A stretch of DNA of 64,000 nt from Panopea generosa (Eukaryota > Mollusca > Bivalvia > Adapedonta > Hiatellidae), in the NCBI GenBank assembly GCA_029582155.1, contig CM055895.1, positions 44,722,578-44,786,577 of the forward strand, in the 5' to 3' direction. Made by a program: the position numbers and the translations under genes. Positions 1 through 34,923 of the stretch are shown here, one piece after another (position 1 is the stretch's first letter; the number at the start of each line of letters is the position of its first letter). Under the pieces are notes generated by a model. It was not told where the DNA came from and did not search any database. It worked only from the letters and a program-made list of their open reading frames with translations.

Positions 1-340
1 ACAACTTGACGACTTAAATTAATTAGTTAAAATCAGATCTCGTAAATCCCGACTTATACTAATATAACAAGGCAACATGAGTTTTGTCCACAAAATGTGT
101 AAATATATGTTTGTTCACAAAAGGTATCCAGCTTTTCAACATAAAACTTCGCGACAAAGCGAGATATTCTAGTCATGAAAACATACTATTGCGCCTTGTA
201 CGAGTTTACTTTAATAGCAAATGGTCAGGCATCGGACTAAATGCACATGCGCATAATAACATGCCTATAAGAATAACAAACCGTTATGATTACCTTCTTA
301 GTGTCATTTTTGTTGTTATACCATATACAAGACTGGTATT
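1..340 (+). repeat. Foldback terminal module U, copy 1 (plus)
   Basis: Starts inside the module at the window edge. Shared landmarks are ACAAGGCAACATGAGTTTTG, CTTCGCGACAAAGCGAGATA and TTGTACGAGTTTAC. It is the reverse complement of 8480-8780 and 17745-18010. An open frame through it is repeated in the other copies but shows no recognisable protein. Confidence 0.75.
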
Positions 341-1500
341 TCCCAAACCATCACATCAAAGTGATGCAATAAATGGTTCGATAGGGTCCAGTAACAAGAA
401 ATACTGACAACAAAGGTGAGTCGTCTTCAAAGTTTCCGGGTTTTTTTCGTGTGTTTAAGAAAGTAATTGAAAAATCGGGGAATCTTGTACGATATATTTA
501 TGAATAACCTGTTCATGTTCTTTTGAGAAACGAAATAGCCGTGGCGAATTTTGCAATTTTTGGGCATGATTTTATTACAAATTGCTCCGAGGATTGTAAC
601 TTAAATTGGCTTTAAATTGCTTATTGCATATGGCCGAGAAGGTCTGTTATCAAATAACAGTACATGCACTTCATTTTTCGAGAGCAAATGGATTTTGTAC
701 ACAGTGTTATAGTTGGTTCGGAAATTGTGTGATGGTTCTGTGAGGCATATTGCATTGAAACCCGCTCGTTTTAAAATATTTTCATTTTTTTCAATTTATA
801 TGATCTTAAGAATAATGAATTGGCAAAGATAAAACTAAATTTCGTTATTATAATCAATATCCTCAACTAACAGAAAGGTATCTTCGGTAGACGTTGTTGC
901 TGCCTCTAGTTCACAACAAAAACTACATATACTATTAGCCGACGTATTATATGTGTCATTGTCCCTGTATTCTGAAACATATTTTGATTTGGTTTAATAT
1001 CCCAATAGCGAGTCCATGACCTTTTAAAGATTTAACTGAATATGTTTTTATTCTAAGAATGGAGACACAGTGTTTGCTTTCTTTAGTAATGCCAATTTAA
1101 ATGGTGTCAAACATTTGTATGGTAAATGCATTTTCCTCGTGAGTTTTGCTGGCGTATTGGTTTTCACCTGAGCATAACTCGAATGAAAGTTTAGCTTCGA
1201 GTTCTTGCATTTGTATACGTTTTTTATGTAAGATAAAATAACTTTTTTTTTGTTTGCCAACTGCAATCTGAAAATGATTTACGTTTAAAGTTATTAAGGC
1301 AAACAATAAACACTTTTATAAATCACGACCAATTGGTATTCGAATGTAAAACTATTTACATGTATTATGCTCAAAGTAAAATATTTTTATCAGAACTGCT
1401 CGACCAGTCTAGTTTGGTCAAAACTTTACAGGTTATAATTGTGAACAATAATTTCATTTTAGCTGAAGTCGTCGTCGGACTGACCACAAGTGCTTTTTAG

Positions 1501-2403
1501 CTCGCCGGGACGAAGTCCAAGGAGAGCTATTGCCATGACCCCAGCGTCGTCGGCGTCGTCGGCGTCGGCGTCTTCTGTAGACACCCAGGTTAAACTTTTG
1601 CGTTTAAGTTTCAGTTATCTATGCAACCACTCATTGGATGTCAATGAAACTTTGCATGTGTGTTGACCATCATCAATGGAACACACAGAAACAAGAACCA
1701 TAACTCTGGATTGCATTTTGGCACAGTTATGGCCTTTTTTGGACTTAGACACCAAGGTTAAACTTTGCGATTAGTTGCATTTAAGTTAAGATATATATGC
1801 AACCACTCATTCGATGTGAATAAAACTTCACATGTGTGTTCACCATCATCAATAGAACACACAGAGATAAGAAACATAACTCTGGATTGCTTTTTGGCAC
1901 AGTTATGGCCTTTTTTTTACTTTGACAACCAGGTTAAACTTTGAGTTTAGTTGCGTTTAAGTTTAAGATATCTATGCAACCACTCATTGGATGTGAATGA
2001 ACCTTCACATGTGTGTTATGTGTGTTCACCATTTTCAATGTAACACACACAGACAAGAACCATAACTCTTGATTGCATTTTGGCACAGATTTGGCCCTTT
2101 TTCGACTTAATTTTTCAGGTTCAAGTTTTTTATCAGGTAAGATATCTATGCAACCACTCATTGGATATGAATGAAACTTTGCATGTGTGTTCACCATCAT
2201 CATTGAAACACACAGAGACAAAACCATAACCCTGGATTGCATTTTAGCAGAGTTATGGCCCTTCAAGTCTTAATTTACACACCCAGGTTAAACTGTTGCG
2301 TTTAGATGCGTTTAAGTTTTGGTGTTTGCCTCCAATCTCAATCTTTGCATTGATGGTGAGTTTTATCCCATCGGCGAGCTTTGTTGTCTTCTGACAACTC
2401 TTG
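1501..2403 (+). mobile_element. 0.9-kb repeat element inserted in the left arm only
   Basis: The left arm reads CACAAGTGCTTTT-TAG, then about 0.9 kb of unrelated sequence, then TTAGGTTTATTTT. The paralogous right arm (7320-7335, reverse complement) reads CACAAGTGCTTTATAGGTTT without interruption, which gives an empty site. The insert begins CTCGCCGGGACGAAGTCC and ends near TCTGACAACTCTTG, flanked on both sides by TTAG (possible short target duplication). AGCTCGCC near the start and GGCGAGCT near 2374 are inverted. A degenerate relative of its first 80 bp lies at 50170-50260. Confidence 0.6.
1586..2315 (+). repeat. Tandem repeat, about 165-185 bp unit, ~4.5 copies
   Basis: Units start with AGGTTAAACTTT at about 1588, 1754, 1932, 2118 and 2286. 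Each contains ATGCAACCACTCATT, a CATGTGTGTT segment, ACACACAGA and GGCACAGTTATGGCC. The array forms the body of the insert at 1501-2403. Minus-strand open frames across it are repeat artefacts. Confidence 0.8.
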
Positions 2404-2964
2404 TTAGGTTTATTTTAATTTACTTATGTCACAATTTGCCTTCATTGAGATATAAGGCTACATCATAAAAACAGTCCACATTAACTATCACCTGCTTTGT
2501 GTTTTTTTATGTAAAATGTGAATTCACCATACAAATGAGTTTTACTTTCGCCAATTCAAGTTTTAAATTATATACATGGGAAAACATAAAACTGTTTTAA
2601 AACGAGCGGATTTTAATGCAACAGAACCATAACATGCCTCACAGAACCATCACATACGTTTCCGAGCCAAAACACCGTGTACAAAAGCTATTTACCCTCG
2701 AAAATGAAATACATGTGGTGTTACTAGTATTTAATACAAGCTCTTCTCGGGCATATACATTATACAATTTATAGCCAATTAAAGTTACATTTCTTGGAAC
2801 TTGTAGTAAAATCACTTGGTAACCACTCGTCTTGCCAAAAACAAAATTCACCACGGCTGTTTCGTTTTTAAAAGTGAAACCAGACAAACAAACAATCGCA
2901 TACATCTGGAAAGATAGCATAGCATGAATTACCCTACATGAAAACGTCATCAGTATGTCCAATA

Positions 2965-3245
2965 TACGCTTCCATAGTCGCCTAATCTCTTGAAAACTTA
3001 TATGTACGCAGGTCGACATACCACAACAGGAATAACCCTACATGAACACGCCATGAGGGTGTCCCATATACGCTTCCATTACTTATTACACGGCAGTCGA
3101 GTTAAATATTCAGCAGTTTCAATAAAAATAATGACATCCAAGTTGCATTCAAGAAGCAGTAATTTTGGAAGCGAATATGGGACACCCTGATGTCGTGTTC
3201 ATGTAGGGTAAACCCTGTTGTTGTATGTCGTGATGTGCACATATA
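2965..3245. repeat. Palindromic junction of foldback ends
   Basis: A left arm (about 3008-3078) with GTCGACATACCACAACAGGA and CCCATATACGCTTCCATTAC faces a right arm (about 3165-3240) with TGGAAGCGAATATGGGAC and GTGTTCATGTAGGGTAAA. A spacer of about 85 bp separates them. The whole structure, spacer included, recurs inverted at 11145-11385. Confidence 0.75.
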
Positions 3246-3389
3246 TATATATATACAAGTTGTCAAGAGATTATGCGACAAGTTTAGATACAAAGCGCCA
3301 TGTTTATGGAATCGTATATGGGACATACTGATGACGTGTTCATGTTGTGTAAATCATGCTATGATATGTCGACATGCTTTGATAGAACA

Positions 3390-3600
3390 TAACATTTAGG
3401 CATACTTTATATTCTCTTGACTATATAATATCACAGTTTCGCTACTTAAATTTTGCGACATACTAACATGTACTTATCTTTGGGACATATATTTTAGCGA
3501 CATTTTCATAATAAGGATATGTCGACATACATAAACACTTCTTTTCGAGAAGAAGTCTCGCGTTTTGTCGATATATAAAGGGTTTCGCGGTATAACTTTT
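3390..3600 (+). repeat. Subterminal repeat preceding transposase remnant
   Basis: Contains TAACATGTACTTATCTTTG and GATATGTCGACATACATAAA and ends near a TATATAAAGGGTTTCGCGGT stretch. Its inverted copy is 17455-17665. Both copies lie outside a transposase remnant pointing inward, as expected for two ends of related elements. Confidence 0.65.
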
Positions 3601-3629
3601 CCCTGATTATTTCAGTTTTGTGTTTTCCA

Positions 3630-4041
3630 GGCACTTTCAATGATTGAACCAGTTACAGTGGCTATTTCAAATGAGTACAAAGATGACGAGCTATCACTAT
3701 ACACAAAGTCATACCTGGAAGAATATTTGTGGATTCATGTTTTTTTTACACAATAAAGCAGTCAGCTTAAGTCATTGAAACGGATCCTCAAACGGTTGGA
3801 ACTTCAGAAACGCAATGTGTCATTTGCATTACCAGATGTTGTAAGTGCCATAAAGGACAGAGTATGAAAGAGGATTTAGTAGTTGTGGTTACGGGATTGT
3901 GTGAAATATTATCAATGTGACAACTAATGTTCGAGTAAATCAAGAAATTGTCAGATGTTTAATAAAAATATTAATCCTGAAGACGTCGTTTGAGAGCTCG
4001 GCATCGATTGCGCCGTCGAACTTACAAAATCGAATTACAGT
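3630..4041 (+). pseudogene. Degenerate transposase N-terminus (integrase-core type), copy 1
   Basis: This stretch aligns along its length with the open frame at 16039-16473 (minus). Shared segments include TTGAACCAGTTACA, CATACCTGGAAG, ATATTTGTGGATTCATG, TTGAAACGGATCCTCAAACG and GTTGTGGTTAC. Frameshifts and stops (for example TAAAG at about 3765 and TATGAAAG at about 3867) destroy the frame. By comparison with the better copy it covers the N-terminal helix-turn-helix region; no catalytic core follows. It is dead and partial. Confidence 0.6.
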
Positions 4042-4619
4042 ATACACACTGATGGTTATGACAAATGACAGATAATTGTATCCAATGTTGGAATGCACGG
4101 TTAAATAACTCAATTTCTATATACATTTTTGTTCCTTTACACTACAACCATATTTATTAAAAATAAATATACACACATTTTGAGTTGCAATGACCAGACT
4201 AAGGGTGTCTTCACATAGACTTTAAGTAAAAAGTGGTAGATGGAAACAACCGAGCACAAATTGCCTAGATAGCTCATGTAAGAGAGCGAATTTGAATTTC
4301 GTTTATATAAGGACTTAAGACCTATATATTTTACAAGTTAATATAATATCAACCCAAGTATGTTTAAAACTATTAAAATTTCACAAACTGATAGCAAATT
4401 ATATGAAACCTGTCTGTTTATTTTATATATACAAAGCGTTTAAACTGAAAATCAAGTATTTGGTCATTGATAGAAATCAATTTTCAATCAAATGAAATCG
4501 TCATCTAATGTATATTTGTAAAAATATTATTCTGAAATGTTTGATCACGGATCATAATGACCTATTTCAAATTATGTTGTACAATGTACTATATTAAGAA
4601 ATACAAGATGTTCTGTTCT

Positions 4620-5290
4620 TTATCACTGTTGATACATATACCTCCCGTCTCAAGAGTAAGGTAATACTTCCTAATTTTATAGGTTTGATGCGGTACTTAT
4701 GTTTAAAACAACAAGGCCTGTTAAGACATCATCAAAATTGGTTTGAAATAGCCATGAGACTTACAGTCATATTTAGCACCATGTATCAGCGGTGATACAT
4801 AGACCTCCCGTATCCAGAATAAAGCACAGCTTCATAATTTAATAGTTTGATACGGTACTTATATCTAGAGCAACAAGGCAGGTTTAGACAGCATTAAAAT
4901 TTGTTTGAAATAGCCATGGGCCTTACAGTCATAATTATCACCATGTATCAGCGGTGATACATAGACCTCCCATCTCCAGGGTAAAGCACAGTTTCATAAT
5001 TTAGTAGTTTTGATTAAATAGCTGTATCTAGAGCAACACGGCAGGTATAGAGATAATCAAAATTGGTTTGAAATAGCTATGAGCCTTACAGTCATATTTA
5101 GCACCATGTATCAGCGGTGATACATAGACCTCCTTTTTTCAGAGTGAGGCACAGCCTCATAATTTAGTAGTTTATATTATATAGGTATGTCTAGAGTAAC
5201 ACGGCATTTATAGACATAATCAAAATTTGTTTGAAATAGCCATGAGCCTTACAGCCATGATCAGCACCATGTATCACCTGAATCTACAAG
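4620..5290 (+). repeat. Tandem repeat, 163-bp unit, ~4 copies, with palindromic core
   Basis: GATACATAKACCTCC recurs at 4631, 4794, 4956 and 5119, giving spacings of 162-163. Complete units also contain ATGTATCAGCGGTGATACAT, an 8-bp inverted repeat around GCGG, and TTTGAAATAGCCATGAG. No coding potential is seen. Confidence 0.85.
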
Positions 5291-5329
5291 AAAAATGTTA
5301 ACTAATAGGCGGATAATTTACAATGACAC

Positions 5330-5960
5330 AAGCCCTGCTGGCCGTTGGCCAATTGAGCCCCAAATTTGGGGTGCTATCAACCTTTTTAGGGGAACTCTAC
5401 ACAGTGCTAGAAATGAAATATCTAAAGTCTATGATTTGTACTTTCAAAGAAAAGGTTTTGCTTAAACTATGCTTATAAGCCGTGTCGCGGTGGCAGTTGT
5501 GGCCGAATCGCTTATTCAAAAACTCGTCCGAGATCTTGTAGTTTTTTAATTACTGTGAAAGGTGAAAGTTTGTTAAAAAATGGCGATTTGCGTCCCAAAT
5601 TTATCTCCGGGAACCTGATTTCAACAACCCTTTTAGGCGACCTCCATACAAAAAATGTATACATGAAGAAAAATATCTAAGGTTTCCCTAAAAATGTGCT
5701 TATAAGCCCAGTGGCGGGGCATTCGTGATCTCCAAGAACTCCTCCGAGATCTTGCGATTATATATCTACTGTGCAAGTTCTGTTAAGATTCGTTGATAAA
5801 TGGCCTGCTATCGCGTTTACAAAAAAAAATGGTAACAGATGGACGGCAGAGGACGGACGACGAACAATTTACCATTACATAAGAGCTGTTGGCCTTTGGC
5901 CATTGGAGCTACATGTAAACTATCTAAGATTCATGGCTTGAACTTTAAGAGTTTTCTTTA
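5330..5960 (+). repeat. Dispersed-repeat fragments
   Basis: Two related blocks begin GCTGGCCGTTGGCCAATTGAG (5337) and GCTGTTGGCCTTTGGCCATTG (5884). Two more blocks share CTTATAAGCC and TCCGAGATCTTG (5470-5540 and 5700-5760). A short GGACGG-rich stretch is at 5842. This looks like old interspersed repeat; I see no gene. Confidence 0.5.
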
Positions 5961-5989
5961 AAAATGTGCCCTGTGGCGGGGGCATATGT

Positions 5990-6603
5990 GTATCACCAGG
6001 CTGTACGATGTAATCATCTAGCCATGGAATGTAATCACTAATCACTCGACATTCTCATGTGGAACTATCACCGGGCCTTGTGAGGTATTGCCGTGATTCT
6101 ATCGCTTGGCTTTGTGATGATATATCCAGATTAAGTGATGCAATCACCGGGCCTTGTGCGGGCTTCACCGGGCTTTGTGATGCAAGCAACGGGCATTGTC
6201 AGTTTATCACCGGATTTTTGTGATGTAATATTCAGGCCATGGATGTAATCACTCGACATTATAAGGTATCACCGGGTCTTGTAAGGTTATCACCTGGTTT
6301 TGTGATGTAATCACCGGATCTTGTGAGACTATCGCAGTGCTTTGTGAGGATATCAACGGCCGTCTGATGATATTACCGGGCCTTTCAGACTATCCCTGTG
6401 TTTATGAGGATATCACCGGGTCATGTGGAGTTATCATCTGGATTTGTGATGCAATTTACTTTGCAATGTAATCACCGTGTCTTGAGATGTTATCTCCAGA
6501 CCTTGTCATCACCGGGCCTTTCAGACTATCGTCGGGTTTGTAAGGATTTCGCCCGACCTTGAGAGTTTATCATCGGATATCACCGAATTTTGTGATATTA
6601 CAC
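5990..6603 (+). repeat. 21-bp minisatellite, plus polarity (array 1)
   Basis: Degenerate units close to TCACCGGGCCTTGTGAGGATA repeat about 28 times. The unit is 21 bp (7 codons), so reading frames stay open by chance. It abuts E2 at about 6603. Confidence 0.85.
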
Positions 6604-6604
6604 A

Positions 6605-8480
6605 CATCACGACTGGTAATCTCCCAAATCATCACATAAATGTGATGCAATTAAATGTTTGGTAGCATTTCCGATGATGGTGCGGTCACAAAAAATATTG
6701 ACAACAAAGGTGAAGTCATCTTCAATGTTTTCGTTTTTTTTCTTGTGTTTAAGGAAAATGTTGTTGTAGGGAAATGTTGTACGATATATCTATAAAACAC
6801 CTTTTAGACAGACGGGTTCTTTTCAGATGTATGCGATGGTTTGTTTGTCTGTTTTGACTTCTAAAAAGGAAACAGCCGTGGCGAATTTTGGTTTTTGGCA
6901 AGACGAGCGGTTACCAAGTGATTTTGTTACCAAGAAATGTAACTTAAATTGGCTATAAATTGTATATTATATATGCCCGAGAAGATCTTATATTACTAGT
7001 AACATCACATGTACTTCATTTTCGAGGGTAAATGGCTTTTGTACACGGTGTTATGGTTCGTAAATGTGTGTGATGGTTCTGTGAGGCATGTTATGGTTCG
7101 GTTGCATTAAAACCAGCTCGTTTTAAAACAGTTTTATGCTTTCCAATGTATATAATTTAAAACTGATGAAATGGCGAAAGTAAAACTCATTCTTATGGTG
7201 AAATCACATTTTAAACATGATCTAAAAACCACGAAGCAGGTGATAGCTAATGTGCACTGTTTTTATGATGTAGCTTTATATCTCCATGAAGGCGAATTGT
7301 GACATAAGTAAATATAAAATAAACCTATAAAGCACTTGTGATCAGTCTGACGACGACTTCAGCTAAAATGAAATTATTGTTCACAATTATAACCTGTAAA
7401 GTTTTGACCAAACTTTGACTGGTCGAACATTTCTGATAAATATATTTTACTATGAGCATACTACATGTAAATAGTTTCACCCTGTTTACATTCGAATACC
7501 AACTGGACGTGATTAATAAAAGTGTTTATTGTTCGCCTTAATAACTTAAAACGAAAATCATTTTCAGATTGCAGTTGGCAAACAAAACAAAGTTATTTTA
7601 CCACTGCAAGGACTCGAAGTTAAACTTTCATTCAAGTTATGCTCAGGTGAAAACCAATACGCCAGCAAAAACTCACGAGGAAAATGCATTTATCATACAA
7701 ATGTTTGACACCATTTAAATCGGCATTACTAAAGAAAGCAAAAACTGTGTCTCTAATTGCACTGATTCTAAGAATAAAAACATATTCAGTTAAATCTTTA
7801 AAAGGTCATGGACTCGCTATTGGAATATTAAACCAAATCAAAATATGTTTCAGAATACAGGGACAATGGCACATGTAATACGTCGGCTAATAGTATATAT
7901 AGTTTTTGTAGTGAACTAGAGGCAGCAACAACGTCTACCGAAAATACCTTTCTGTTTGTTGAGGATATTGATTATGATAACGAAAATTAGTTTTATCTTT
8001 GCCAATTCATTGATCTTAAGATCATATAAATTGAAAAAAATGAAAATATTTTAATACGAGCGGGTTTCAATGCAATTTGCCTCACAGAACCATCACACAA
8101 TATCCGAACAAACTATAACACCGTGTACAAAATCAATTTGATCTCGAAAATGAAGTACATGTGCTGTTATTTGATAAAAGACCTTCTCGGCCATATGCAA
8201 TAAGCAATTTAAAGCCAATTTAAGTTACAATTCTTGGAGCAATTGGTAATGAAATCATGCCCCAAAATTACAAAATTCGCCACGGCTACTTTGTTTCTGA
8301 AAAAAACATGAACAGGTTATTCATAAATATATCGTACAACATTCACCGAGTTTTCAATTACCTTCTTAAACACACGAAAAAAAAACAGGAAACTTTGAAG
8401 ACGACTCACCTTTGTTGTCAGTATTTCTTGTGACCGGACCCTATCGAACCTTTTATTGCATCACTTTTAAGTGATGGTTT
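6605..8480. repeat. Element E2: M-module inverted repeats, spacer reversed relative to E1
   Basis: M is plus at about 6615-7200 and minus at about 7980-8410. The spacer 7200-7980 is the reverse complement of the E1 spacer and lacks the 1501-2403 insertion. A small open frame at 7684-7878 is shared with E1 but broken there, and no protein family is recognised. Confidence 0.65.
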
Positions 8481-8880
8481 GGGAAATATCAGTCTTGTAT
8501 ATGGTATAACAACAAATAGGACACTAAGAAGGTAATCATAACGGTTTGTTATTCTTATAGGCATGTTATTATGCGCATGTGCATTTAGTCCGATGCCTGA
8601 CCATTTGCTATTAAAGTTAACTCGTACAAGGCGCAATAGTATATGTTTTCATGACTAGAATATCTCGCTTTGTCGCGAAGTTTTATGTTGGAAAGCTGGA
8701 TACCTTTTGTGAACAAACATATATTTACACATTTTGTGGACAAAACTCATGTTGCCTTGTTATATTAGTATAAGTCGAAATTTACAAGATCTGATTTTAT
8801 CTGATTGATTGAAGTCGTCAAGTTGTGTAAATAATACGACAAGTATAGTTATCTTTTGACAACATGATGCGTTGTAACTA
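8480..8880 (-). repeat. Foldback terminal module U, copy 2 (minus)
   Basis: Reverse complement of 1-340, continuing past the window-edge truncation of copy 1 through GACTTGTCGCCTAATCTCTTGA. It is a direct paralogue of 17740-18130. Confidence 0.75.
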
Positions 8881-8924
8881 GACTTGTCGCCTAATCTCTT
8901 GACAACGTGTATACTTTTATGTGC

Positions 8925-9090
8925 ACATGTCGACATACCACAACAGGAATTACCCTACATGAACACGCCATCAAGGTGTCCCATATACGCTTCTATACGT
9001 ACACGGTGCCGTATTGTATGGAAGCGTATATGGGACATACTGATGACGTGTTCATGTAGGGTAAATCCTCTTATGGCATGTCGACATGCA
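8925..9090. repeat. Short head-to-head palindrome of foldback ends
   Basis: The left arm GTCGACATACCACAACAGGA ... CCCATATACGCTTCTAT and right arm ATGGAAGCGTATATGGGACA ... GGCATGTCGACATG are separated by about 20 bp. Two adjoining elements meet here. Confidence 0.7.
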
Positions 9091-9139
9091 CACATAGAAT
9101 ATACAAGTTGTCAAGTAATAAGGTGACATGTCTAGAAAC

Positions 9140-9485
9140 AACGCGTCATGTTGTCAAAAGAGCACTCAACTTGTCGTATTATTTAAATAGACAAAACCAC
9201 ATCTTGTCAATCTCGACATAAACTTATATAACAAGGCAACATATATTTGTCGACAAAGTATTTTAGGATATGTTTGTTTACAAAAAAATTCCAGCTTTCT
9301 TACATAAACTTCGCGACAAAGCCAGATATTCTAGTCATGAAAATATACAGTTTCTTATAATAGCATTTTTAGGCACCAGACTAAATGTACAAACGCACAA
9401 GCTTTTGCGTGTAACCATACCAAACTTTTATGGTAACCTTCTTATTTTTCTATATGTTGCTATACCATATGTGTTACATCACAAA
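9140..9485 (+). repeat. Foldback terminal module U, copy 3 (plus)
   Basis: Contains the AACAAGGCAACATA and ACTTCGCGACAAAGCCAGAT landmarks. It is shorter and more diverged than copy 1, and runs straight into a minus-polarity 21-bp array. Confidence 0.7.
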
Positions 9486-9486
9486 A

Positions 9487-9597
9487 TTCGGTGATATCCT
9501 CACAAGGCCCGGTGAAATCCTCATACGGTATGGTGATATCTTTATAAACCCGACGATAGTTTGAAAAGACCCGGTGGTAACAAGGTCGGAAGATAAC
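9487..9597 (-). repeat. 21-bp minisatellite, minus polarity (array 2a)
   Basis: Units resemble TCCTCACAAGGCCCGGTGATA, the reverse complement of array 1. The array is cut by the MITE at 9599 and continues at 10300. Confidence 0.8.
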
Positions 9598-9598
9598 A

Positions 9599-10292
9599 AG
9601 TAGTGGAAGGCGTCTCTATAGATAGTGAGGTCAGCATGTTTTTAGTATATAGTCTATGTAATGTGGCCATTTTGGATTTTGGAGGAGGGAATTTTCAGTT
9701 AATCTTTTAAGAGGTCATTATATGGGATTCTTAGACAGGAGATAACGCCAGAAATAAACAGGCACCCTTTGGTTAGATTGCTTACTTGTATACCCTATCT
9801 AGTAATACGAGCGGACATATATGCTATATGCATCATGCAGGATGGTACAAATGTAAGAGTTCATTGACATAAAATATATATATTAAGTTTGAGGGAATAC
9901 ATATCCAGTGAGACACTCATTTCTCAAATTAATTAAGGTAACACATCCGCACTCCTCAAGTAAGTTTTGTCATCCGCATATACGTTAACTATAGTTAAAC
10001 ATCATCACCAACTTAATGTGATACGGTATGATGCACTATGTACTATTAGGAATCGGTATAAGTCATCATGACTTGACCATCTATGTCCGCTTGTTATATC
10101 AGTCAGCACTCTAACCAAAGGGTGCCCAAGGGTTTATTTCTGGCGTTATATCCTGTCTAAGAATCACAAATAATGACCTCTTAAAAGATTAACTGAAAAT
10201 TCCCTCTTTCAAAATCCAAAATGGCCACATTACATAGAATATATAGTAAAAACATGCTGACCTCACTATCTATAGAGACGCCTTCCACTACT
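9599..10292. mobile_element. 694-bp MITE with ~180-bp inverted repeats and 6-bp TSD
   Basis: Inverted arms 9599-9785 and 10113-10292 begin AGTAGTGGAAGGCGTCTC and share CACCCTTTGGTTAGA / TAACCAAAGGGTG at their inner ends. The element is flanked by ATAACA at 9593-9598 and 10293-10298. It splits a 21-bp array. The 330-bp loop holds no recognisable coding sequence, so the element is non-autonomous. The superfamily cannot be assigned from the ends alone. Confidence 0.8.
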
Positions 10293-10299
10293 ATAACAT

Positions 10300-10720
10300 C
10301 CCAATACCCGGTGTTTAAATCGCAAAGTACGATGATAAATTCATAAGGCCTGCAGATTGCATCACAAATCCCAGTGATACCCTCACAAGAGGCTAGGGAT
10401 ATCCTAACAAACACGTTGATAGTCTCAAAAAGCCCATTGATAGCAACACAAAGCTCGGTGATATCGTCACAAAGCACGGTGATAGTCTCATAAGGTCCGG
10501 CGATTACACGGTGACAGTATTATTATGCCCGGTGTTTATCTAAAAATGCTCGGTGATAGCCTGGTATTGCTCGGTGATAACTTCACAATTCCTTGTGATC
10601 ATTTTTAAGACTATCGCAGGGCCTTGTGGGGATATTACCTGGCCTTGAGGGGGATATTACCGGGCATTGTGGGAATATCACCGAGCATAGTGGTGCAATT
10701 ACCGAGTGGCTGTCACCTGG
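10300..10720. repeat. 21-bp minisatellite that reverses polarity (array 2b/2c)
   Basis: Units have minus polarity up to about 10590 and plus polarity from about 10596 (CAGGGCCTTGTGGGGATAT onward). The turn-over point is the centre of the 9018-11200 foldback unit. Confidence 0.75.
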
Positions 10721-10779
10721 CATTATAATGCTGTTATATTCATTGATATCGTAATATATAAATGCTATGTTTTATTGAA

Positions 10780-11100
10780 GGATGTCGAAATACCACAACA
10801 GGATTTACCCTACTTTAACACGTCACCAGTGTGTCCTATATACGCTTCCATAGTATTGTATATTTTCATGTCTAGAATATCACGCTTTGCCGCGAAGTTT
10901 TATGTTGGAAAACTGAAAACATTTTTTGTGAACAAATATAGAATTATACACTTTGTGGACAAAACTCGTGTTGCCTTGTTATATTAGTGTAAGTAGAAAT
11001 TTACAAGATGTGACTCTGTCTATTTAATTTAAGTCTTCAAGTTGTGTAAATAATACGACACGTAAGTTCTCTTTTGACAACATGGCGCGTTGTATCTGAA
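10780..11100 (-). repeat. Foldback terminal module U, copy 4 (minus)
   Basis: Contains CGCTTTGCCGCGAAGTTTTA and TGTTGCCTTGTTATATTAG. It pairs with copy 3 as the opposite arm of the same unit. Confidence 0.7.
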
Positions 11101-11144
11101 CTTGTCGCATAATCTCTTGACAACTTGTATATATATATGTATGT

Positions 11145-11385
11145 GCACATCACGACATACAAAAACAGGGTTTACCCTACATGAACACGACATCAGGGTG
11201 TCCCATATATGCTTCCAAAGTTACTGCTTCTTGAATGCAACTTTGATGTCATTATTTTTATTGAAACTGCTGAATATTTAACTCGACTGCCGTGTAATAA
11301 GTTATGGAAGCGTATATGGGACAACCTGATGGCGTGTTCATGTAGGGTAATTCCTGTTGTGGTATGTCGACCTACGCACATACAA
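11145..11385. repeat. Palindromic junction, inverted copy of 2965-3245
   Basis: Both 70-bp arms and the 85-bp spacer (GTTACTGCTTCTTGAATGCA ... CGACTGCCGTGTAATAAG) match the reverse complement of the junction at 2965-3245. Confidence 0.75.
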
Positions 11386-11449
11386 GTTGTCAAGAGATTA
11401 CGCGACAAGTCTAGATACATGTTGTCAAAAGAGAACTATAGTTGTCGTT

Positions 11450-12170
11450 TTATTTACAGAATTTGACGACTTTAATCAAATAGACAAAATCAGATCTTGT
11501 AAATCTCCACTTTTACTAATATAACAAGACATGAATTTTGTCGATAAAGTGTGTTGATCTATGTTTGTCCACAAGACGTTGCCAGTTTTCCAACATAATA
11601 CTTCGCGACAAAGCGAGATATTCTAGTCATGAAAACATACACTACCGCGCCCTGTACCAAGGAGGAGAACCTAACGCTAAATACGGTGCCGGAACGTTGT
11701 TTCAAAAGCAGGTTAAAAGATTTTTCTGTGCATATTTTATAGTTTCACCGACCGTCTGGCTAGAAGAGGAATCTAAGTCCTCGATGTATAGATCAGTGCG
11801 ATTTACACAATTCCAGATCACCTCAAAGCAATTACGATTTTTCTAAATGTAAACATTACCGGAAATGACGCTCAACTGTTTTGTGGTAATTTGGAATTTG
11901 ATAGGTCGCACTGAATTTTATATCAGTTAAATAGATTCCTCTTATTCCCAGACGATCGGTGGGATCTATAAATTCTACAAATGTACCCAAAATCGAAAAC
12001 AAGTAACTAAAACCAGCTTCAGAAACAACGTTCCGGTACCGTTTTTAGCAGGTGTGCGTGAGCGTAGGTTCTCCCCGTTGTGAACGAGTTTACGAAAATA
12101 ATAAATGGTTAGGCATGCGCAAAATTACTTGCCTGTAAGAATAACAAACCTTTATGACCTATCCATTGTC
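11450..12170 (+). repeat. Foldback terminal module U, copy 5 (plus), split by a MITE
   Basis: The module is intact to CCCTGTAC at 11657 and resumes at GAACGAGTTTAC near 12083. A 423-bp palindromic element lies between. Confidence 0.7.
11658..12080. mobile_element. 423-bp palindromic MITE
   Basis: The element folds almost end to end. GGAGAACCTAACGC at 11664 pairs with GCGTAGGTTCTCC at 12062, GCCGGAACGTTGTTTC pairs with GAAACAACGTTCCGG, and CCGACCGTCTGG pairs with CCAGACGATCGG. Flanks are TGTAC (11653-11657) and TGAAC (12081-12085), consistent with a 5-bp duplication, and uninterrupted U copies supply the empty site CTTGTACGAGTTT. It has no coding capacity. Confidence 0.8.
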
Positions 12171-12194
12171 ACCATATGTGTAACATCACAAAGT

Positions 12195-12520
12195 GCAGTG
12201 ATATCATCACAATGCCAGGTGATACCCTTTCAAGATCCGGCGAAATCTTAACAAGACTCGGTGATATCCTCACAAGACCCAGTGATAACAAGGTCGGGAG
12301 ATGATATTCCAAGACCCGATGATTACGTCGCAAATTACGGCGATAGACTCACAAGGCCCGGTGATTACAGCACAAAGCCCACTGATAGCCTAACAAGACC
12401 CTGTGATAGCATCACAAGGCTGGGAGATAGTCTCAAATGGTTTGGTGATTACATAAGAAAGCCCAGTAATATCCTTGATGATAGCTTCACAATACCCGGT
12501 GATAACATAATAATGTCAAT
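12195..12520 (-). repeat. 21-bp minisatellite, minus polarity (array 3a)
   Basis: Units resemble TCCTCACAAGACCCAGTGATA. A 144-aa open frame across it (rich in R-P-G-D repeats) is a by-product of the 21-bp period. Confidence 0.85.
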
Positions 12521-12619
12521 TGACAGACTTTTAATACCAGTTCATAAACCTGCTGGTAGCCTCGCTGGTAGCCAATTTCCTGTATACTTTTTATTTCCTG
12601 ATTCAGTGCTGAATTTAAT

Positions 12620-13420
12620 TTTTAAGAGGCTATCAGACATCTATTACAGTTCGGTGACATTATATGGGACAACTGTTACGAAAAACAATTCTTGACAAAA
12701 TCCAAAACGAAGCTGCATGCATAGTCATCGGATCAACCAAACTACTTTCGCTCCACGACCTTTTCAATAACATAGGGCGGGAATCACTCGAAGCTCGTAG
12801 ACGTAAACACAAACTAATACTGTTTTACGTTTAACAAAATGATACATAATGAAAATCTCCCGTATCTTTTCTCCTTCGTGCCCATTTCAGTAAATGAAGC
12901 ATCAGTCTATAATTTAAGAAATGCATGATTATCAAGTCCAAAATGCTCGTTCTACGTTATATTTTACATTTTTTCATCCTTCTCCCAGCGGTTTTACGAA
13001 ACTGGAATGCCTTTCTAGCGACTACACGAAAAAGTTTTATTACTACTGTTAAACAACACCTTTACCGAAGGAAATCTAAAGTGTCAAACTATTTCTATCG
13101 GGAAATAGGAGAGCTCAAAGAGTACGCTCACACTGTAGTTCTCTTAACCTACATTAATTACATAAAACTATTGTCGTATCTCCACCGTGAATGTAGGGTA
13201 TAGAAAGTATGTACAATTACTTTTTGATTGTCATTTCTATGTCATTTCTATGACAATCAGAGTCGAATAATACATAAATTGAACCCAATATACACTGTGC
13301 CAATAAACACTTAAATAATGTTTGGTGACCCAAACCTTCCAAATAAAACATTATTTGAAGCAGTACCAAAATTGCAATTTTATTCAATAAAATATTTTAA
13401 ATATCCAATATGTGAATGTG
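12620..13420 (+). pseudogene. Dead non-LTR retrotransposon (LINE) fragment, RT C-terminal region
   Basis: Frameshifted blocks recall the 3' end of an invertebrate non-LTR element: IIWDNC (12653), ILDKIQNEAACIV (12684), LSLHDLFNNIGRESLEARRR, NLPYLFSSFVPISVNEASVY (12850), LRNWNAF and, near the end, MFGDPNLPNKTLFEA (13319). Their order matches the C-terminal part of such polymerases. Several frame changes and stops make it non-functional, and no N-terminal RT motifs are present. The family assignment (CR1/L2-like) is tentative. Confidence 0.7.
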
Positions 13421-14104
13421 AGCCGTTATGTTATGTTGTCTCTACACAAGGCACACCACAGTCCATAGTAACCTAGTATTTTATTTGTTTTTTTAAAGAT
13501 TAATTTTCTCTGAATTTCTGCTACTTAAAACATATTTAGCATTGATCTTAAATGTTATAATTTCTTATTTTGGTTTTCAATGACTTTATTAAAACTTATA
13601 GTGCAGTCACATCAACTGTTCAACATATTCAGAAAGTAAATTACCGTTATTTTTATGTTAGTGATTTCACATTTTTGATAAGAACTTTAAAATTTAATCC
13701 TTTTCAAATTGTGTATAAATTTATTGTATTGATGTAATATACGAAATAAAAATATATTTAAACATACAATTTTAAAGCATATGATGGGCGTATTCGTAGA
13801 TCTTCTAACAATTTTACTATTAGGTTTAAACATATGTTTTGTATAGTATAATGTCACCTCATCTTTTTATACTCAATTTAAAACACAATTACGAAGTCAC
13901 ATGTTAATTAAACATATGTTATAATTTATTTTTTGCTGTTTGTTTCCAACTAATTTCATCCCCTAAAGAGGAATAGAAATGAAAGAGAACTTTTCTCGTA
14001 TAGAATATCTAATAAAACAATAAAGTAAATTTCAAATAGTGGTTTAAAACGTTCAAAGGAACATTAAGTATATGTGTATTGTATGGGTATTATAAACAGT
14101 GTAT

Positions 14105-14560
14105 GACATGTTCTTGATAGTTCGTGTATATCAGCGGTATTTTTATTACCAGGCCCTGTGAAGATATCATAGGTTTTTGTAAGGATGTCGTCCGGCTTTG
14201 TGATGATATCACCGCCTAGTGGTGAAATCACCGGACCTTGTGAGAATTTCAACGGGTCTTGTGATACAATCAACGTACTTTGTAAAACTATCGCACGGCA
14301 TTGATATTACCAGGCCGTGGGAGGCTATCAACGGTTATAGTGAAGCAATTACCATGCCTTCCGAGGCTATCATCGGGCATAGTGATGCAATTACCATGCC
14401 TTCCGAGGCTATCATCGGGCTTTCTCATGTAATCACTGGATATAATGATGTTATGACCGAGACTTTCAGACTATTATCGGGCCTTGTGCGGATATCACCT
14501 GGGTTTGTGATGTAACCAACGGTCTCTGTGTGAATATCACGCCTTGTTAGAAAATCAGTT
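14105..14560 (+). repeat. 21-bp minisatellite, plus polarity (array 3b)
   Basis: This is the opposite-polarity partner of 12195-12520. A 42-bp segment (CCATGCCTTCCGAGGCTATC) is duplicated at 14353 and 14395, showing local expansion. Confidence 0.85.
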
Positions 14561-14598
14561 GGCTTTGTGGTGCCAGAGTTTCTGTTCTTTAAGTGATA

Positions 14599-14615
14599 CC
14601 CCCCCCCCCCCCCCC
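14599..14615 (+). repeat. Poly-C tract (17)
   Basis: Seventeen consecutive C immediately after array 3b. Confidence 0.95.
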
Positions 14616-14814
14616 TCAAGGTTTGAGGTCTTGAGTAATAACTAAGTAACTAAATGTGTATCACCATAGTTAGATGGTGCCTGCAGTAGTTGTGTCGTGA
14701 TTGGTTCAGTAATGCATACATTATTGCCCTTGAATGATAATATCATGTATTATATACAGCATTACGACAAATTACTTTTCTGCAAAAGCAGGGTTTGGTA
14801 CCTAGTCATCTAAC

Positions 14815-14990
14815 TTGTTTGTTTATCATCAAATGCCAATTGAGTTTTTGAGTCAAAGATCAAGGTCACAGTGACATTTCCTTAAAAATAGTATATGGCC
14901 ATTAACTTAATAAGGATTTGGTTCCCAGTCCTAAAACGTAGTAAGATATATTAAGTCAATTTGAAGTTTTAATTTACCCTCGCGCTTTGA
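14815..14990 (+). repeat. Dispersed-repeat fragment
   Basis: AAAGATCAAGGTCACAGTGA followed by GTATATGGCCATTAAC and GGTTCCCAGTCC resembles an interspersed motif common in molluscan DNA (recalled, not searched). The rest of 14616-15620 shows nothing recognisable. Confidence 0.35.
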
Positions 14991-15624
14991 ACTGGTCATT
15001 TTAGCTAGCAGGAACAGATGACTTTTTAAAAATAAACTGAGGATTATTGTAAGTCTGTATGAATGAATAATGATGGGTGATTGATGATTTAATTCAATTT
15101 CCTTATTAATTGGAATTTTTACTAATTTACTTAATGGATTCGGTGTTTATACTTTGTTATTTTCGTATTAAATAACGAAGATTATTTTAATTTGTTTGAC
15201 TTAATAGAATATTGATCGTATAATGAAGAGAATATTAACCTTATATAGCCATGTAATATAAGTCAATCACTTAGTACAAGTGTTGAGTTATCCTTATCCG
15301 TCAATCAGGTCTGAGACACTGAAGGCGCTTATGCAACAAAACTTAAATTGTGTTCAACTATGGTTATGTAAAACCAATAAATCAGGCCAAACACCTCCGC
15401 TTATAGCGCAAATAGAATTGCTTAGAAGCGAGACACACATTCTCATTACTCGTATATTGAGACACTCGGTGTAACAGTCATTACCTAGATCGTTAATTAG
15501 TCGTCGGTCTTCATAGCGAACTATTATTAATTAGTGGACGTCTGAAGGCAAATTATATGCCACATATTAAATTGTCAATGCTTTGAACTCTAGTGTGTGG
15601 AAAAAGTACAAAATACTTTTATTT

Positions 15625-15990
15625 TTTAGATCTGCCGGCCTATCTGTACATTGGAGGGGATATTTTTGAACAATTTTAATAGAGGACCACCGAATGATCA
15701 TTTAAAGCTAATTCTTAATCTGTTTTGAATTATGATAGATCTTATAAGCTACAGAGCAGAATCGTTTGAACAAGTTTGATAAAAGACTACCGAGGGAATA
15801 TGCCTTCGGTCAACATTAATGAAGGGGTTAAGGAGGTGATGACATAAATATTTTATTTTTAGTTCTCCCGGTCCCTATGAGCAACGGAGCGGAACCGTTT
15901 GAACATTTTGATATAGGAAAAGGGATCATTCCAGTGAAATTTGGTCAAGGGGTTTGGAAGGAGATGTCATTTATTTTATTTTAAGCTTAT
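15625..15990 (+). repeat. Diverged repeat in two or three tandem copies
   Basis: Blocks beginning ATCTGCCGGCCTATC (15630) and TTCTCCCGGTCCCTATGAGC (15862) share GAACAATTTT/GAACATTTTGATATAGGA and end in GGAGATGTCATTTATTTTAT-like sequence. Old interspersed repeat. Confidence 0.5.
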
Positions 15991-16038
15991 GCAGCCCGTT
16001 GAATACAATTTTATTATATATATAATTACAAACACGTT

Positions 16039-16473
16039 CTACTGCTTGAAAAAACACACGTGACAATATTTGGTCCTTTGTTTACGGACGTTCTGCGGCT
16101 CAATCGATGCAGGGCTCTCAAATCCACGCCTTCGAATCAACATTTTTATTAAGTGCCTGGCTTTTTCTTCGGTTACTCGAACATCAGTTGTAACATTAAT
16201 AATTTTCCACACAGTCCTGTAACCACAACCACAAAATCCTCTATTATATATTGTCATTAGGACACGTATACAATCTGGTAATGCAGATGATACAATACGT
16301 CTCTGAAGTCCCAAACGTTTGAGGATCCGTTTCAACTGACTGAAACTGACTACTGTATTGTGTAAAAAGAGCATGAATCCACAAATATCCTTCCAGGTAT
16401 GACCTTGTATATAGATATCCCTAATCCACAATATCTCTGTGCTAATTTGAAATAACCGATGTAACTGGTTCAA
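16039..16473 (-). pseudogene. Transposase N-terminal fragment (integrase-core type), copy 2
   Basis: A 144-aa open frame. Residues about 22-55 read DIYIQGHTWKDICGFMLF and then FSQLKRILKRLGLQRR, a helix-turn-helix pattern. It is followed by a segment with GYRTVWKIINV and RGFESPASIEPQNVRKQRTK. This order is typical of eukaryotic transposon proteins that carry an integrase-type DDE core after the HTH; the core itself is absent and the frame stops after the RTK basic stretch. Copy 1 (3630-4041) is more decayed. It lies inside the subterminal repeat at 17455-17665, pointing inward. IS3EU-like affinity is a guess. Confidence 0.55.
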
Positions 16474-16746
16474 TCTGTTCGTTTGTAATAGAAGTTAATG
16501 CATTTATATATGTGAATATTATGTCAAAATTTACATGCGTTACATGGATGTATATATTATTCACACTGTGTTACGTAGCCAACGAATAGAAACGGTCATT
16601 TTAGTGGTGGCCACTTAATACAGTGTGAAGACCAATTCAGAAGTAAAATGTTCATCACATAGATCTACATGTGTTTAGGTGTAAGCGACTTGCATGGTAT
16701 TAATATACATTAAGTAATATACTTTAATTTTAACGTTAACGTCTCT

Positions 16747-16855
16747 CATCATCATCATCATCGGTGTTATCGTAATCATCGCCGTTACCATTATCCTTAT
16801 CACCATCATCATCATCATCATCATCATCATCATATTAGCATTATTATCACCATAA
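16747..16855 (+). repeat. ATC/CAT trinucleotide microsatellite
   Basis: Two runs of CAT (16747-16762 and about 16802-16832) are joined by impure CAT/CGT-like triplets. Confidence 0.9.
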
Positions 16856-17454
16856 GCACCAGTGTCTTAAAACGGATGACATGCAATAAGAATGTTTCCT
16901 TGCTAAAATGTTTAAAACAGTGCGTTATAATGATTCGCAAAGAACACAAAAATATTAATAATCAAACATTTTTATTCAATTAGTCTGAATTCCTATTCGG
17001 TCCAGACACTCACATCCCCGTCCACCCAAGTAACTTTTTAACAGACTCCCCACCCACCGTATGTTTCTGCTAAAATAACAAATAGGCAAGTAACAGCACG
17101 AGATAAGGAGAAACGAGTATAAACTTCTGATTACAATATTTTGGCAAGTCAAAACAAATACGTTTGATCCGCAAACAACACGTTTTATCTCAAAAAGATA
17201 AACCAGACGTAATACTATTAATTTTCGACAATGACACATTACTATCAATTTATTGGTAGTGGCTTTGTCTTTACTGTCTGAAAATAATTACTTACCCATA
17301 CAAAGATAAAATTATATCATGACTCTGACAAAAAATATAATACCATTTCAAAAAATAAAATATAATAATAATTTACCATTTCCATTGTGTCTACACCAGC
17401 GTCAAAATGTATGTCAGAATACTATGATTATATAAATAAGCAGTGAAAATATAT

Positions 17455-17665
17455 ACCGCAAAACACTTTATATATCGGCAAAGCGCGTTACTTCTTCTCA
17501 AAAAGATGTGTTTATGTATGTCGACATGTCCTTATTATGAAAATGTCGCCAAAATATGTGTCACAAAGATAAGTACATGTTAGTATGTCGCAAGATTTAA
17601 GAAGCAAAACTGTGATATTATATAGACAAGAGAATATAAAGTATGTATATATGTTGTGTTCTACC
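17455..17665 (-). repeat. Subterminal repeat, inverted copy of 3390-3600
   Basis: Contains TTTATGTATGTCGACATG and AGATAAGTACATGTTAGTA, the reverse complement of the left copy. The stretch 16480-17455 between it and the transposase fragment is AT-rich, with nothing recognisable except the CAT microsatellite. Confidence 0.65.
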
Positions 17666-17739
17666 AAGGCATGTCGGCGTACCACAACATGATTTGCCCT
17701 ACATGAACACGGCATCAGTATGTCCCATATACGCTTCCA

Positions 17740-18130
17740 TAGTTTGTTATTCTTATAGGCATGTTATTATGCGCAAGGCATTTAGTCCGATGCCTGACTA
17801 TTTGCTATTAAAGTAAACTCGTACAAGGCGCAATAGTATGTTTTCATGGCTAGAATATCTCGCTTTGTCGCGAAGTTTTACGTTAAAAAACTGGATACCT
17901 TTTGTGAACAAACATATATTTACACACTTTGTGGACAAAACTCATGTTGCCTTGTTATATTAGTATAAGTTGAGATTTACGAGATCTGATTTTGACTAAT
18001 TAATTTAAGTCGTCAAGTTGTGTAAATAATACGACAAGTATAGTTATCTTTTGACAACATGATGCGTTGTAACTAGACTTGTCGCCTAATCTCTTGACAA
18101 CTTGTATACTTTTATGTGCACATGTCGACA
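17740..18130 (-). repeat. Foldback terminal module U, copy 6 (minus)
   Basis: Near-identical by eye to 8545-8880 and to the reverse complement of 1-275. It is followed by GTCGACATACCACAACAGGA and a duplicated CTACATGAACA before CCCATATACGCTTCCAT at 18178. Confidence 0.75.
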
Positions 18131-18194
18131 TACCACAACAGGAATTACCCTACATGAACACGCCTACATGAACATCCCATATACGCTTCCATAT

Positions 18195-18330
18195 GTACGA
18201 GTTTACGATAGTAGTAAATAGTTAGGCACTGGACTAAATGCACATGCTCAAAATTACTTGCCTAGAAGACTAACAAACCGTTATGATTTCCTTATTTTTG
18301 TTCTTTTTGTTGTTATGCCATAGCAGTGTG
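18195..18330 (+). repeat. Foldback terminal module U, copy 7 (plus, truncated)
   Basis: Starts right after CTTCCATA and stops after TTGTTGTTATGCCATA. It marks the right limit of the cluster. Confidence 0.65.
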
Positions 18331-26004: not shown

Positions 26005-26225
26005 TTGAACGCGTGGTCCAGTGGTAGAGCAACGAATCCATAATCGGAGGACCGTGGGTCCGATTCTCCGCCACAGCTATTTGTGGTGTCCTTGAGCATA
26101 TCTTTTTTCCACATAAGCTTAGTACTGGTTTTACCCATGAAGACTCCGAGCGTGATTTGTCTAAGTTGTAAGAACTTGTTTCACAATCGAAGTAAAAAAA
26201 ATAAGTTTAAACGACTTTGCTTCGA
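26005..26225 (+). repeat. tRNA-derived SINE (family 5)
   Basis: A Pol III promoter-like head has box A-like GTGGTCCAGTGGTAGAGC at 26012 and box B-like GGGTCCGATTC at 26067. The body is CCACAGCTATTTGTGGTGTC and the tail GTCTAAGTTGTAAGAACTTG. The same body or tail occurs at 52790-52910 (minus), 52930-53045 and 60690-60815. It is not a functional tRNA because no acceptor pairing is found. Confidence 0.7.
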
Positions 26226-30574: not shown

Positions 30575-31385
30575 TTATTGACGAGTGTCGTCAACAGCGC
30601 GATCATCCAAACACGAATGTCTTTAACAGCGCGATCATCCAAACACGAGTGTCTTCAACAGCGTGATCATCTAAACACGAGAGTCTTCAACAGCATGATC
30701 ATCCAAACACGAATATCTTTAACAGCGCGATCATCCAAACACGAGTGTCTTCGACAGAGTGATCATCCAAACACGAGTGTCTTCAACAGCGCGATCATCC
30801 AAACACGAGTGTCTTCAACAGCATGATCATCCAAACACTAGTGTCTTCAATAGCGCGATCATCCAAACACGCGTGTCTTCAACAGCACGATCATCCAAAC
30901 ACGAGTGTCTTCAACAGCGTTATCATCCAAACACGAGTGTCTTCAACAGCGTTATCATCCAAACACGAGTGTTGTCAACAGTGCGATCATCCAAACACGA
31001 GTGTCGTCAACAGCGAGATCATCCAAATACGAGTGTCGTAAACAGCGCGATCATCCAAACACGAGTGTCTTCAACAGCGGGATCATCAAAACTTGAGTGT
31101 CGTCAACAGCGTGATCATCCAAACATGAGTGTCTTCAACAGCAGGATCATCCAAACTTGAGTGTCGTCAACAGCGAGATCATCCAAATACGAGTGTCGTA
31201 AACAGCGCGATCATCCAAACACGAGTGTCTTCAACAGCGGGATCATCAAAACTTGAGTGTCGTCAACAGCGTGATCATCCAAACATGAGTGTCTTCAACA
31301 GCAGGATCATCCAAACTTGAGTGTCGTCAACAGCGCGATCATCCAAACACGAGTGTCGTCAACAGCGTGATCATCCAAACCTGAC
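30575..31385 (+). repeat. 30-bp minisatellite, ~27 copies
   Basis: The unit is close to GCGATCATCCAAACACGAGTG + TCTTCAACA (30 bp). Variants alternate TCTTCAACA with TCGTCAACA and GCGATC with GTGATC. A block of about 120 bp (about 31015-31135 and 31165-31285) is duplicated as a higher-order repeat. Several frames stay open because 30 is a multiple of 3. Confidence 0.95.
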
Positions 31386-33290: not shown

Positions 33291-33885
33291 CACTCCCGGA
33301 AGTGAGTTATGGTTATGTACAACTCCCAAAAGTGAGTGATAGATTTGTACAACTCCCAAAAGTGAGATATAGTAATGTTCAACTCCCGGAAGTGAGTTAT
33401 AGTTATGTACAACTCCTGGAAGTGAGTTATAGTTATGTACAACTACAAAATGTGAGTTATAGTTATGTACAACTCCTGGAAGTGAGTTATAGTTATGTAC
33501 AATTCCTGGAAGTGAGTTATAGTTATGTACAACTACCAAATGTGAGTTACAGTTATGTACAACTCCTGGAAGTGAGTTATAGTTATGTACAACTCCTGGA
33601 AGTGAGTTATAGTTATGTACAACTCCTGGAAGTGAGTTATAGTTATGTACAACTACCAAATGTGAGTTATAGTTATGTACAACTCCTGGAAGTGAGTTAT
33701 AGTTATGTACAACTACCAAATGTGAGTTACAGTTATGTACAACTACCAAATGTGAGTTATAATTATGTACAACTCCTGGAAGTGAGTTATAGTTATGTAC
33801 AACTACCAAATGTGAGTTACAGTTATGTACAACTCCTGGAAGTGAGTTATATTATTGTTATGGTTATGTGCAACACCGTAAAGTG
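33290..33885 (+). repeat. 30-bp minisatellite with two unit types, ~19 copies
   Basis: Unit AGTGAGTTATAGTTATGTAC plus AA and an 8-nt variable part, which is mostly CTCCTGGA (type A) or CTACCAAA (type B). The two types are interspersed rather than blocked. Open frames on both strands (173 aa minus, 194 aa plus) follow from the period and are not genes. Confidence 0.95.

Positions 33886-34770: not shown

Positions 34771-34923
<153 letters not shown>

Follow-up and report, generated by a model that had tools for sequence, protein, structure and literature searches.

Probable nest of defective IS3EU-type DNA transposons with a Maverick remnant and a proposed inversion of about 18 kb in the bivalve Panopea generosa

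We analyzed a stretch of 64,000 nucleotides from the bivalve Panopea generosa (C2:44722578-44786577, contig CM055895.1; genome 1.47 Gb, 39 contigs), hereafter the window, focusing on its first 18 kb. Coordinates below 1 denote upstream bases, where 0 is the last base preceding the window and -170 lies 171 bp before base 1. The 18-kb region most probably consists of nested, defective DNA transposons of the IS3EU type, holds a remnant of a Maverick (Polinton), and has undergone an inversion of ~18 kb. The elements are named e1, e2, e3, T, and U, their two unlike ends are named X and Y, and copies found at other loci carry L numbers. The features of the region are as follows, where TSD denotes a target site duplication and TIR a terminal inverted repeat.

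-170 to 2976, - (by transposase sense): e1, from a Y end to a short X end, with TATGG at -170 and CCATA at 2976; a deletion derivative of ~3.15 kb, 94% identical to L011 over -170 to 1782.
-170 to 8997: composite of e1, the 328-bp junction, and e2 (Y..Y, 9.17 kb), which probably moved into T as a single unit.
2977 to 3304, +: captured junction of 328 bp (right-Y stub, spacer, left-Y stub), limited by the ends of e1 and e2.
3305 to 8997, +: e2, running 5.69 kb from X to Y and for the most part collinear with L016, a free copy (TSD CTTATG).
3644 to 4045, +: 5' part of a decayed transposase gene, in e2.
4621 to 5276, +: 163-bp tandem repeat, four copies, in e2; present too in L016, L011, and L019.
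6067 to 6599, +: 21-bp array of forward polarity, in e2.
8998 to 9003, +: CGTACA, a copy of the composite's TSD, inverted relative to 18194-18199 (6/6).
8998 to 9016, -: T, inner piece of the left Y end (inverted); once joined to 10859-11217 and 18200-18322, the piece can be aligned with intact Y ends.
9017 to 10852, -: e3, Y to X, 1.84 kb, in T; TSD GTATTG at 9011-9016 and 10853-10858 (6/6).
9475 to 9578, -: 21-bp array of reverse polarity, Y side of e3.
9599 to 10292: deleted Maverick/Polinton of 694 bp, in e3; TSD ATAACA at 9593-9598 and 10293-10298.
10295 to 10599, -: 21-bp array of reverse polarity, in e3.
10582 to 10732, +: 21-bp array of forward polarity, X side of e3.
10859 to 11219, -: T, outer piece of the left Y end (inverted).
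11220 to 11302: spacer between T and U, with an inverted copy at 3081-3163.
11303 to 17741, -: U, Y to X, 6.44 kb; TIRs of 69 bp, 88% identical.
11658 to 12080 (approximate limits): unrelated small inverted-repeat insertion in U; matches to element copies end at 11656 and restart at 12081.
12182 to 12503, -: 21-bp array of reverse polarity, Y side of U.
14145 to 14535, +: 21-bp array of forward polarity, X side of U.
16039 to 16494, -: transposase relic, an open frame of 151 amino acids (aa) covering the N-terminal helix-turn-helix (HTH) region.
17401 to 17741, -: X end, 341 bp.
17742 to 18193, -: Y arm, 452 bp, the likely recombination partner of -170 to 281.
18194 to 18322, +: T, right-hand part, beginning with the TSD copy TGTACG (18194-18199).

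The elements end in TATGG..CCATA, with TA..TA as the outermost bases. The original prediction, made from the letters of the window alone, counted one terminal module seven times with alternating orientation; allowing up to five mismatches, we found 12 termini between -170 and 18193, which do not alternate: L(-170), R2976, R3080, L3164, L3305, R8997, L9017, R10852, R11219, L11303, R17741, and R18193. The genome contains 154 exact copies of the 15-mer CATATACGCTTCCAT (88 + 66), five of them in the window and one just upstream of it; the reversed control has none. The layout of these sites was scored on the first 100 listed. Among them were 28 neighboring pairs less than 10 kb apart, 16 of which showed the minus-then-plus layout expected of element ends (seven were ++, three +-, and two --). 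With a 20-kb limit, the same 100 sites fell into 70 clusters, 50 of them with a single site, the largest being the window and a cluster on C4 with six sites each.

We fetched 17 regions, and 14 contained a minus-then-plus end pair. TIRs of 69-74 bp with 82-88% identity were present in all eight elements examined (in L012 the repeat is offset by 24 bp at one end). Inward of the TIR the two ends are unlike: X spans ~341 bp and matches 47 places in the genome at 80-100% identity (40 of 186 candidates scored), and Y spans at least 500 bp. Two element forms share these ends, a long one with 163-bp arrays (L016, L011) and a short one (e.g., L014, L015, L017, L018, and L020). Alignment blocks between e2 and L016 are 77-90% identical, and the segment 4632-5991 is closest to L019 (86%). 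L011 carries four right-end motifs spaced 66 bp apart (5343-5556), a tandem amplification of the terminus itself.

In e3 and U, the 21-bp arrays have reverse polarity on the Y side and forward polarity on the X side; e2, which lies the other way round, carries forward units only. A unit search of 1-18400 (at most seven mismatches) recovered 34 forward and 27 reverse matches, compared with zero to four for 20 single-base shuffles. Forward units start at 6067-6579, 10582-10712, and 14145-14515, and reverse units at 9475-9558, 10295-10579, and 12182-12483, with a stray at 14142. The mirror polarity originally proposed for these arrays was thus borne out.

Perfect 6-bp TSDs directly outside TATGG..CCATA flank five of the 14 fetched pairs (L012, L014, L015, L016, and L022). 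None of 182 control pairings across loci gave a 6-bp match, and the other lengths between 3 and 10 bp yielded no duplications. Since L009 and L010, as well as L020 and L021, are copies with the same flanks, the pairs represent about 12 independent loci. Discrete copies with target duplications, which the original prediction proposed as a test, therefore exist elsewhere, and the modules are not confined to unlinked fragments, an outcome named in advance as its refutation. Miniature copies of 66-71 bp, consisting of nearly only the two TIRs, were seen at L027 (2963-3028 and 8926-8996) and L028 (3196-3261 and 8943-9013). All four carry a 6-bp duplication, possibly from one event, as there are two per locus, ~5.7-6.0 kb apart, in repeated context.

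Inside the X end lies a decayed transposase gene, present in the window at 16039-16494 (-) and 3644-4045 (+) and also in L011, L016, L019, and L025. A single-query protein search with the window relic returned five candidates, none of which was scored. For a read-through of one relic, 14 of 25 candidates matched at E <= 1 (best 1.2e-17), and 13 of these 14 carry PF24764, an integrase core. The best relative, P0121, shows HTH_21 and rve, both below curated cut-offs, and relatives of the transposase show rva_4 and an IS3-like HTH, likewise below cut-off. The unaltered window open reading frame (ORF) is 39% identical to P0121 over 87 aa; this ORF has 61 matches in the genome and P0121 has 134, some of them stop-free (e.g., on C14 and C4). 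In L050, an exact X end at 484 is followed, 888 bp further on, by a transposase in two open pieces (1372-2454). The second piece matches PF24764 at 2.8e-21, far above the cut-off; the first falls just under it (4.7e-5, 23.6 bits against a cut-off of 26) and is 79% identical over 97 aa to the window relic. By our own reading, the two pieces may retain three catalytic motifs. On this sequence evidence, the transposase is of the IS3-like DDE integrase type. L050 and L051 are paralogous loci ~130 kb apart on the 5.1-Mb contig C22, and in both the transposase is followed by ORFs resembling those of long interspersed nuclear elements (LINEs).

Ends, duplication, and enzyme fit the published features of IS3EU, on which the proposed membership rests. 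As far as the cited extracts go, fungal IS3EU families have 6-bp TSDs and TAYGG..CCRTA ends (PMC12730594), and TA..TA termini with 6-bp TSDs are among the features of IS3EU, with Polintons likewise producing 6-bp TSDs (PMC10045372). The window's TATGG..CCATA, its 6-bp TSD, TIRs longer than 30 bp, and integrase-type transposase all agree with this superfamily, which Repbase lists together with GingerRoot. The family that the original prediction left without a name can thus be given one. What sets these elements apart from IS3EU is that the fetched copies are defective, that the two subterminal ends are unlike, and that a captive Maverick is present together with mirror arrays of a 21-bp unit and arrays of 163 and 176 bp. 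In the part of an oyster satellite study available to us, two satellites are assigned to IS3EU (PMC8268682).

The Maverick remnant in e3 starts with AGTAGTGG and finishes with CCACTACT, giving AGTAGT..ACTACT, that is, (AGT)2..(ACT)2 ends, with ATAACA on both sides. Vertebrate Mavericks are described with these end motifs, among others, and with 6-bp TSDs (PMC8097293, in extract). L014 and L017 share the carrier sequence but contain a single ATAACA and no insert (L022 has ATAATA), and this empty site, together with the unit's own TSD, indicates a separate insertion. In the fetched copies the unit occupies a single target site, slightly altered in L012 and L024, and spans 1393, 2357, or 4006 bp in other copies. 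Polymerase fragments occur in L012, L013, L015, L018-L021, and L025; in L013, L019, and L020 the fragment lies near an inner TIR and between the two. We looked for such a fragment in the window and found none.

A profile built from the fragments matched 1061 of 2667 candidates at E <= 0.01. Among the 120 relatives listed, those named to species were all bivalves (Mytilus species, Mya arenaria, and Mizuhopecten), the Mya arenaria relative being 73% identical over 62% of the query; 12 of the 120 carry PF03175 (DNA_pol_B_2), which was confirmed on two of the three relatives tested. A protein-primed family B polymerase would thus be indicated through the relatives carrying PF03175. Searches of viral contigs with the fragments were of no help, and the best match in a phage collection was a phage DNA polymerase at E = 0.7. 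In its (AGT)2..(ACT)2 ends, 6-bp TSD, TIRs, and family B polymerase fragment beside a TIR (L020), the inner unit agrees with Mavericks as characterized in the source extract; it differs in its size of 0.7-4 kb and in its location.

The Maverick tip occurs 36 times in the genome (at most two mismatches; reversed control 0). Element-end sites were listed for C1-C11, where 24 of the tips lie (the other 12 are outside the count), and 22 of these 24 have an exact IS3EU-type end no more than 10 kb away, compared with a chance expectation of ~0.2% (assuming ~950 Mb). On these contigs the inner Maverick is almost captive to its carrier, and the lineage probably spreads mainly as cargo of the IS3EU-type element rather than through its own integrase. 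A more speculative possibility, to which we assign only a small chance, is that a virus-like Maverick has changed its mode of spreading, such that the lineage multiplies almost solely as IS3EU-type cargo of 0.7-4 kb, with the TIRs retained and part of the polymerase still present in several copies. In the boldest form of this idea, the Maverick TIRs would benefit the carrier, for example, as second recombining arms or as replication ends. Teratorn, a piggyBac element fused with a herpesvirus (180 kb; PMC10175614, in extract), similarly joins a viral or virus-like genome to a DNA transposon, but the window carries a shrunken remnant only. Among the papers listed by literature searches, judged by titles and the openings of abstracts, none described a Maverick carried by an IS3EU element.

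The footprints within the window suggest how the nest was assembled. Only two of 66 pairings of its ends have matching 6-bp flanks: 9017/10852 (GTATTG) and 8997/18193 (CGTACA/TGTACG), and the latter match only when one is inverted. The T pieces 8998-9016, 10859-11217, and 18200-18322 rejoin seamlessly as a continuous Y end when both insertions are omitted, and the inverted Y arms -170..281 and 18193..17742 are 94% identical. The inverted duplication, the seamless flanks, and a switch of similarity within the arms together point to recombination between the Y arms, which would have inverted ~18 kb. Under such recombination, resemblance to the far arm of the composite is expected in the right arm close to the tip and in the left arm further in. 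This was largely observed: the right arm matches the far arm at seven of eight sites between 57 and 220, and the left arm at nine of nine between 222 and 418 (sites 453-461, beyond the arm, are left out). In a permutation test with a free breakpoint, p was 0.0092 with the clustered block at sites 20-28 counted once, 0.0018 with it dropped, and 0.022 with it counted once and sites 153/154 merged. We consider this sequence pattern to be moderate evidence for the switch. U and the arm would have adjoined before the inversion, and a TSD sought for the corresponding pair, L(-170)/L11303, gave no match and was not counted. ACTTAT follows the end of U and also lies two bases before the -170 end, which is suggestive only and was not counted as a TSD.

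We propose the following order of events, in which each element would have been cut and pasted by an integrase-type transposase acting in trans, recognizing TATGG..CCATA and leaving 6-bp target duplications. U and T would have neighbored each other at the outset. e3, with the Maverick remnant already inside, would have landed in T at GTATTG, and the composite of two elements and the copied 328-bp junction would have entered T as one unit at TGTACG; the data leave the relative order of these two insertions unfixed. Recombination between the two inverted Y arms would then have flipped the segment from about -170 to 18193, leaving the duplication inverted. The ends, the 6-bp duplications, the transposase relics, the nesting of e3 in T, and the Maverick remnant in e3 are directly visible in the DNA; from these, we infer the order of events and the movement of the composite as one unit. 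The latter is suggested by the junction 2977-3304, whose limits fall exactly on the ends of e1 and e2 and whose sequence matches 11079-11406 in inverted orientation at 95% identity. The junction may have been picked up locally, and copying during gap repair is equally possible.

Several observations weigh against this reconstruction. TSDs are lacking at nine of the 14 pairs of the first batch and at the one pair of L029, suggesting that chimeras or wrong pairings are frequent among the pairs; none of e1, e2, and U has one when considered singly. Within the arms, site 199 contradicts the switch, and the block at 20-28, the nearest to the tip, matches the left arm. A search of 18323-64000 did not reveal the right-hand end of T. 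Among the fetched copies, there was no intact transposase frame with both ends (the stop-free matches on C14 and C4 lie elsewhere), and by our own reading, the L050 transposase is frame-broken and followed by the LINE-like ORFs. The polymerase fragments themselves had no polymerase match in Pfam or PDB.

The best-surviving alternative, which we regard as possible but unlikely, is that the inversion arose with no crossing-over between Y arms, either by gene conversion or by aberrant transposition, in which a transposase joins ends that belong to separate elements. The breakpoints 2976, 3305, and 17741 coincide exactly with element ends, which favors this alternative, but the switch occurs inside the arms, away from their tips, and the sequences on either side of the TGTACG target can be rejoined exactly. 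We therefore retain recombination between the Y arms as the preferred account of the inversion.

The original prediction described three foldback elements. Its shared terminal module in both orientations and its long inverted repeats are real, and its expectations of nested transposons and of a rearrangement site were supported by the insertion footprints and by the inverted target duplication, respectively. The single units, however, are ordinary TIR transposons, and the foldback label does not suit them. For example, the apparent 1.67-kb foldback arms (-170..1500 and 7325..8997, 92% identical) are Y ends belonging to two oppositely oriented elements, an arrangement that accounts for most of the foldback appearance. 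That the units are true foldback elements of the Foldback, Galileo, or Tetris kind, each a palindrome with its own long arms and rearranging through them, is improbable. Long inverted arms with tandem arrays favor it, as does L022, which holds an imperfect internal palindrome of 2.2 kb (73%). Galileo, according to the cited extract, has tandem repeats near its ends, chimeric copies with mismatched flanks, and arm-mediated inversions (PMC3573991), all of which recall the window. Galileo, however, belongs to the P superfamily and has 7-bp TSDs, whereas none of our 14 pairs matched at 7 bp; it also has TIRs of hundreds of bp in a single element, whereas the eight elements examined, with their two unlike ends, have TIRs of ~70 bp, and the TSD-bearing L014, L015, L016, and L022 have short ones. 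Moreover, the transposase relics are of the integrase type. TSD length, TIR length, and transposase thus led us to reject the P superfamily and other foldback kinds. We also rejected a simple tandem duplication of one element, since the X/Y make-up differs and the TSDs are separate.

An assembly artefact from collapsed haplotypes or repeats is less probable still. Inverted repeats of 1-2 kb at high identity are difficult to assemble, but the window lies on a 100-Mb contig, most components recur in independent copies elsewhere, and misassembly would not be expected to yield exact TSDs or an ancestral junction that rejoins seamlessly. Finally, the 6-bp TSD and the polymerase relic inside several copies are compatible with an outer element derived from a Polinton, but this has hardly any chance of being correct and we rejected it, given that the outer ends are TA..TA rather than AG..CT, that the inner TIRs enclose the polymerase in L013, L019, and L020, and that rva_4 and the IS3-like HTH (the latter below cut-off) occur in relatives of the outer transposase.

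The nest lies upstream of a host gene matching dynein axonemal assembly factor 5, with an exon at 37296-37976 (+; PF25757, E 5e-73); an exon with HEAT repeats at 46783-47178 (+) may be part of the same gene. Two open frames are related to other transposons: 394 aa with a MULE transposase domain at 35917-37101 (-), and 224 aa with weak matches to a Tc1/IS630-type transposase HTH at 27856-28530 (+). Sequence of the 21-bp array type recurs at ~26006-26212 and 52724-52877 (85% and 77% identical to L017), but no element ends were found in 18301-64000 (at most six mismatches). Tandem repeats include a 69-bp unit in 28 copies (55051-56971), a 32-bp unit in 25 copies (30581-31380), a 30/90-bp repeat (33292-33855), and (CT)74 (34774-34921). 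Rfam and tRNA scans of the window found nothing.

IS3EU is a little-described superfamily, and this locus supplies likely animal members together with their anatomy, including unlike ends, mirror arrays, and miniature copies. It also offers a worked example of how Y arms may bring about inversions, as is seen with Galileo in flies. With its captive Maverick, the locus would represent one mobile element spread by another, and the empty site and conserved 6-bp footprint of the Maverick make this history testable in sister species.

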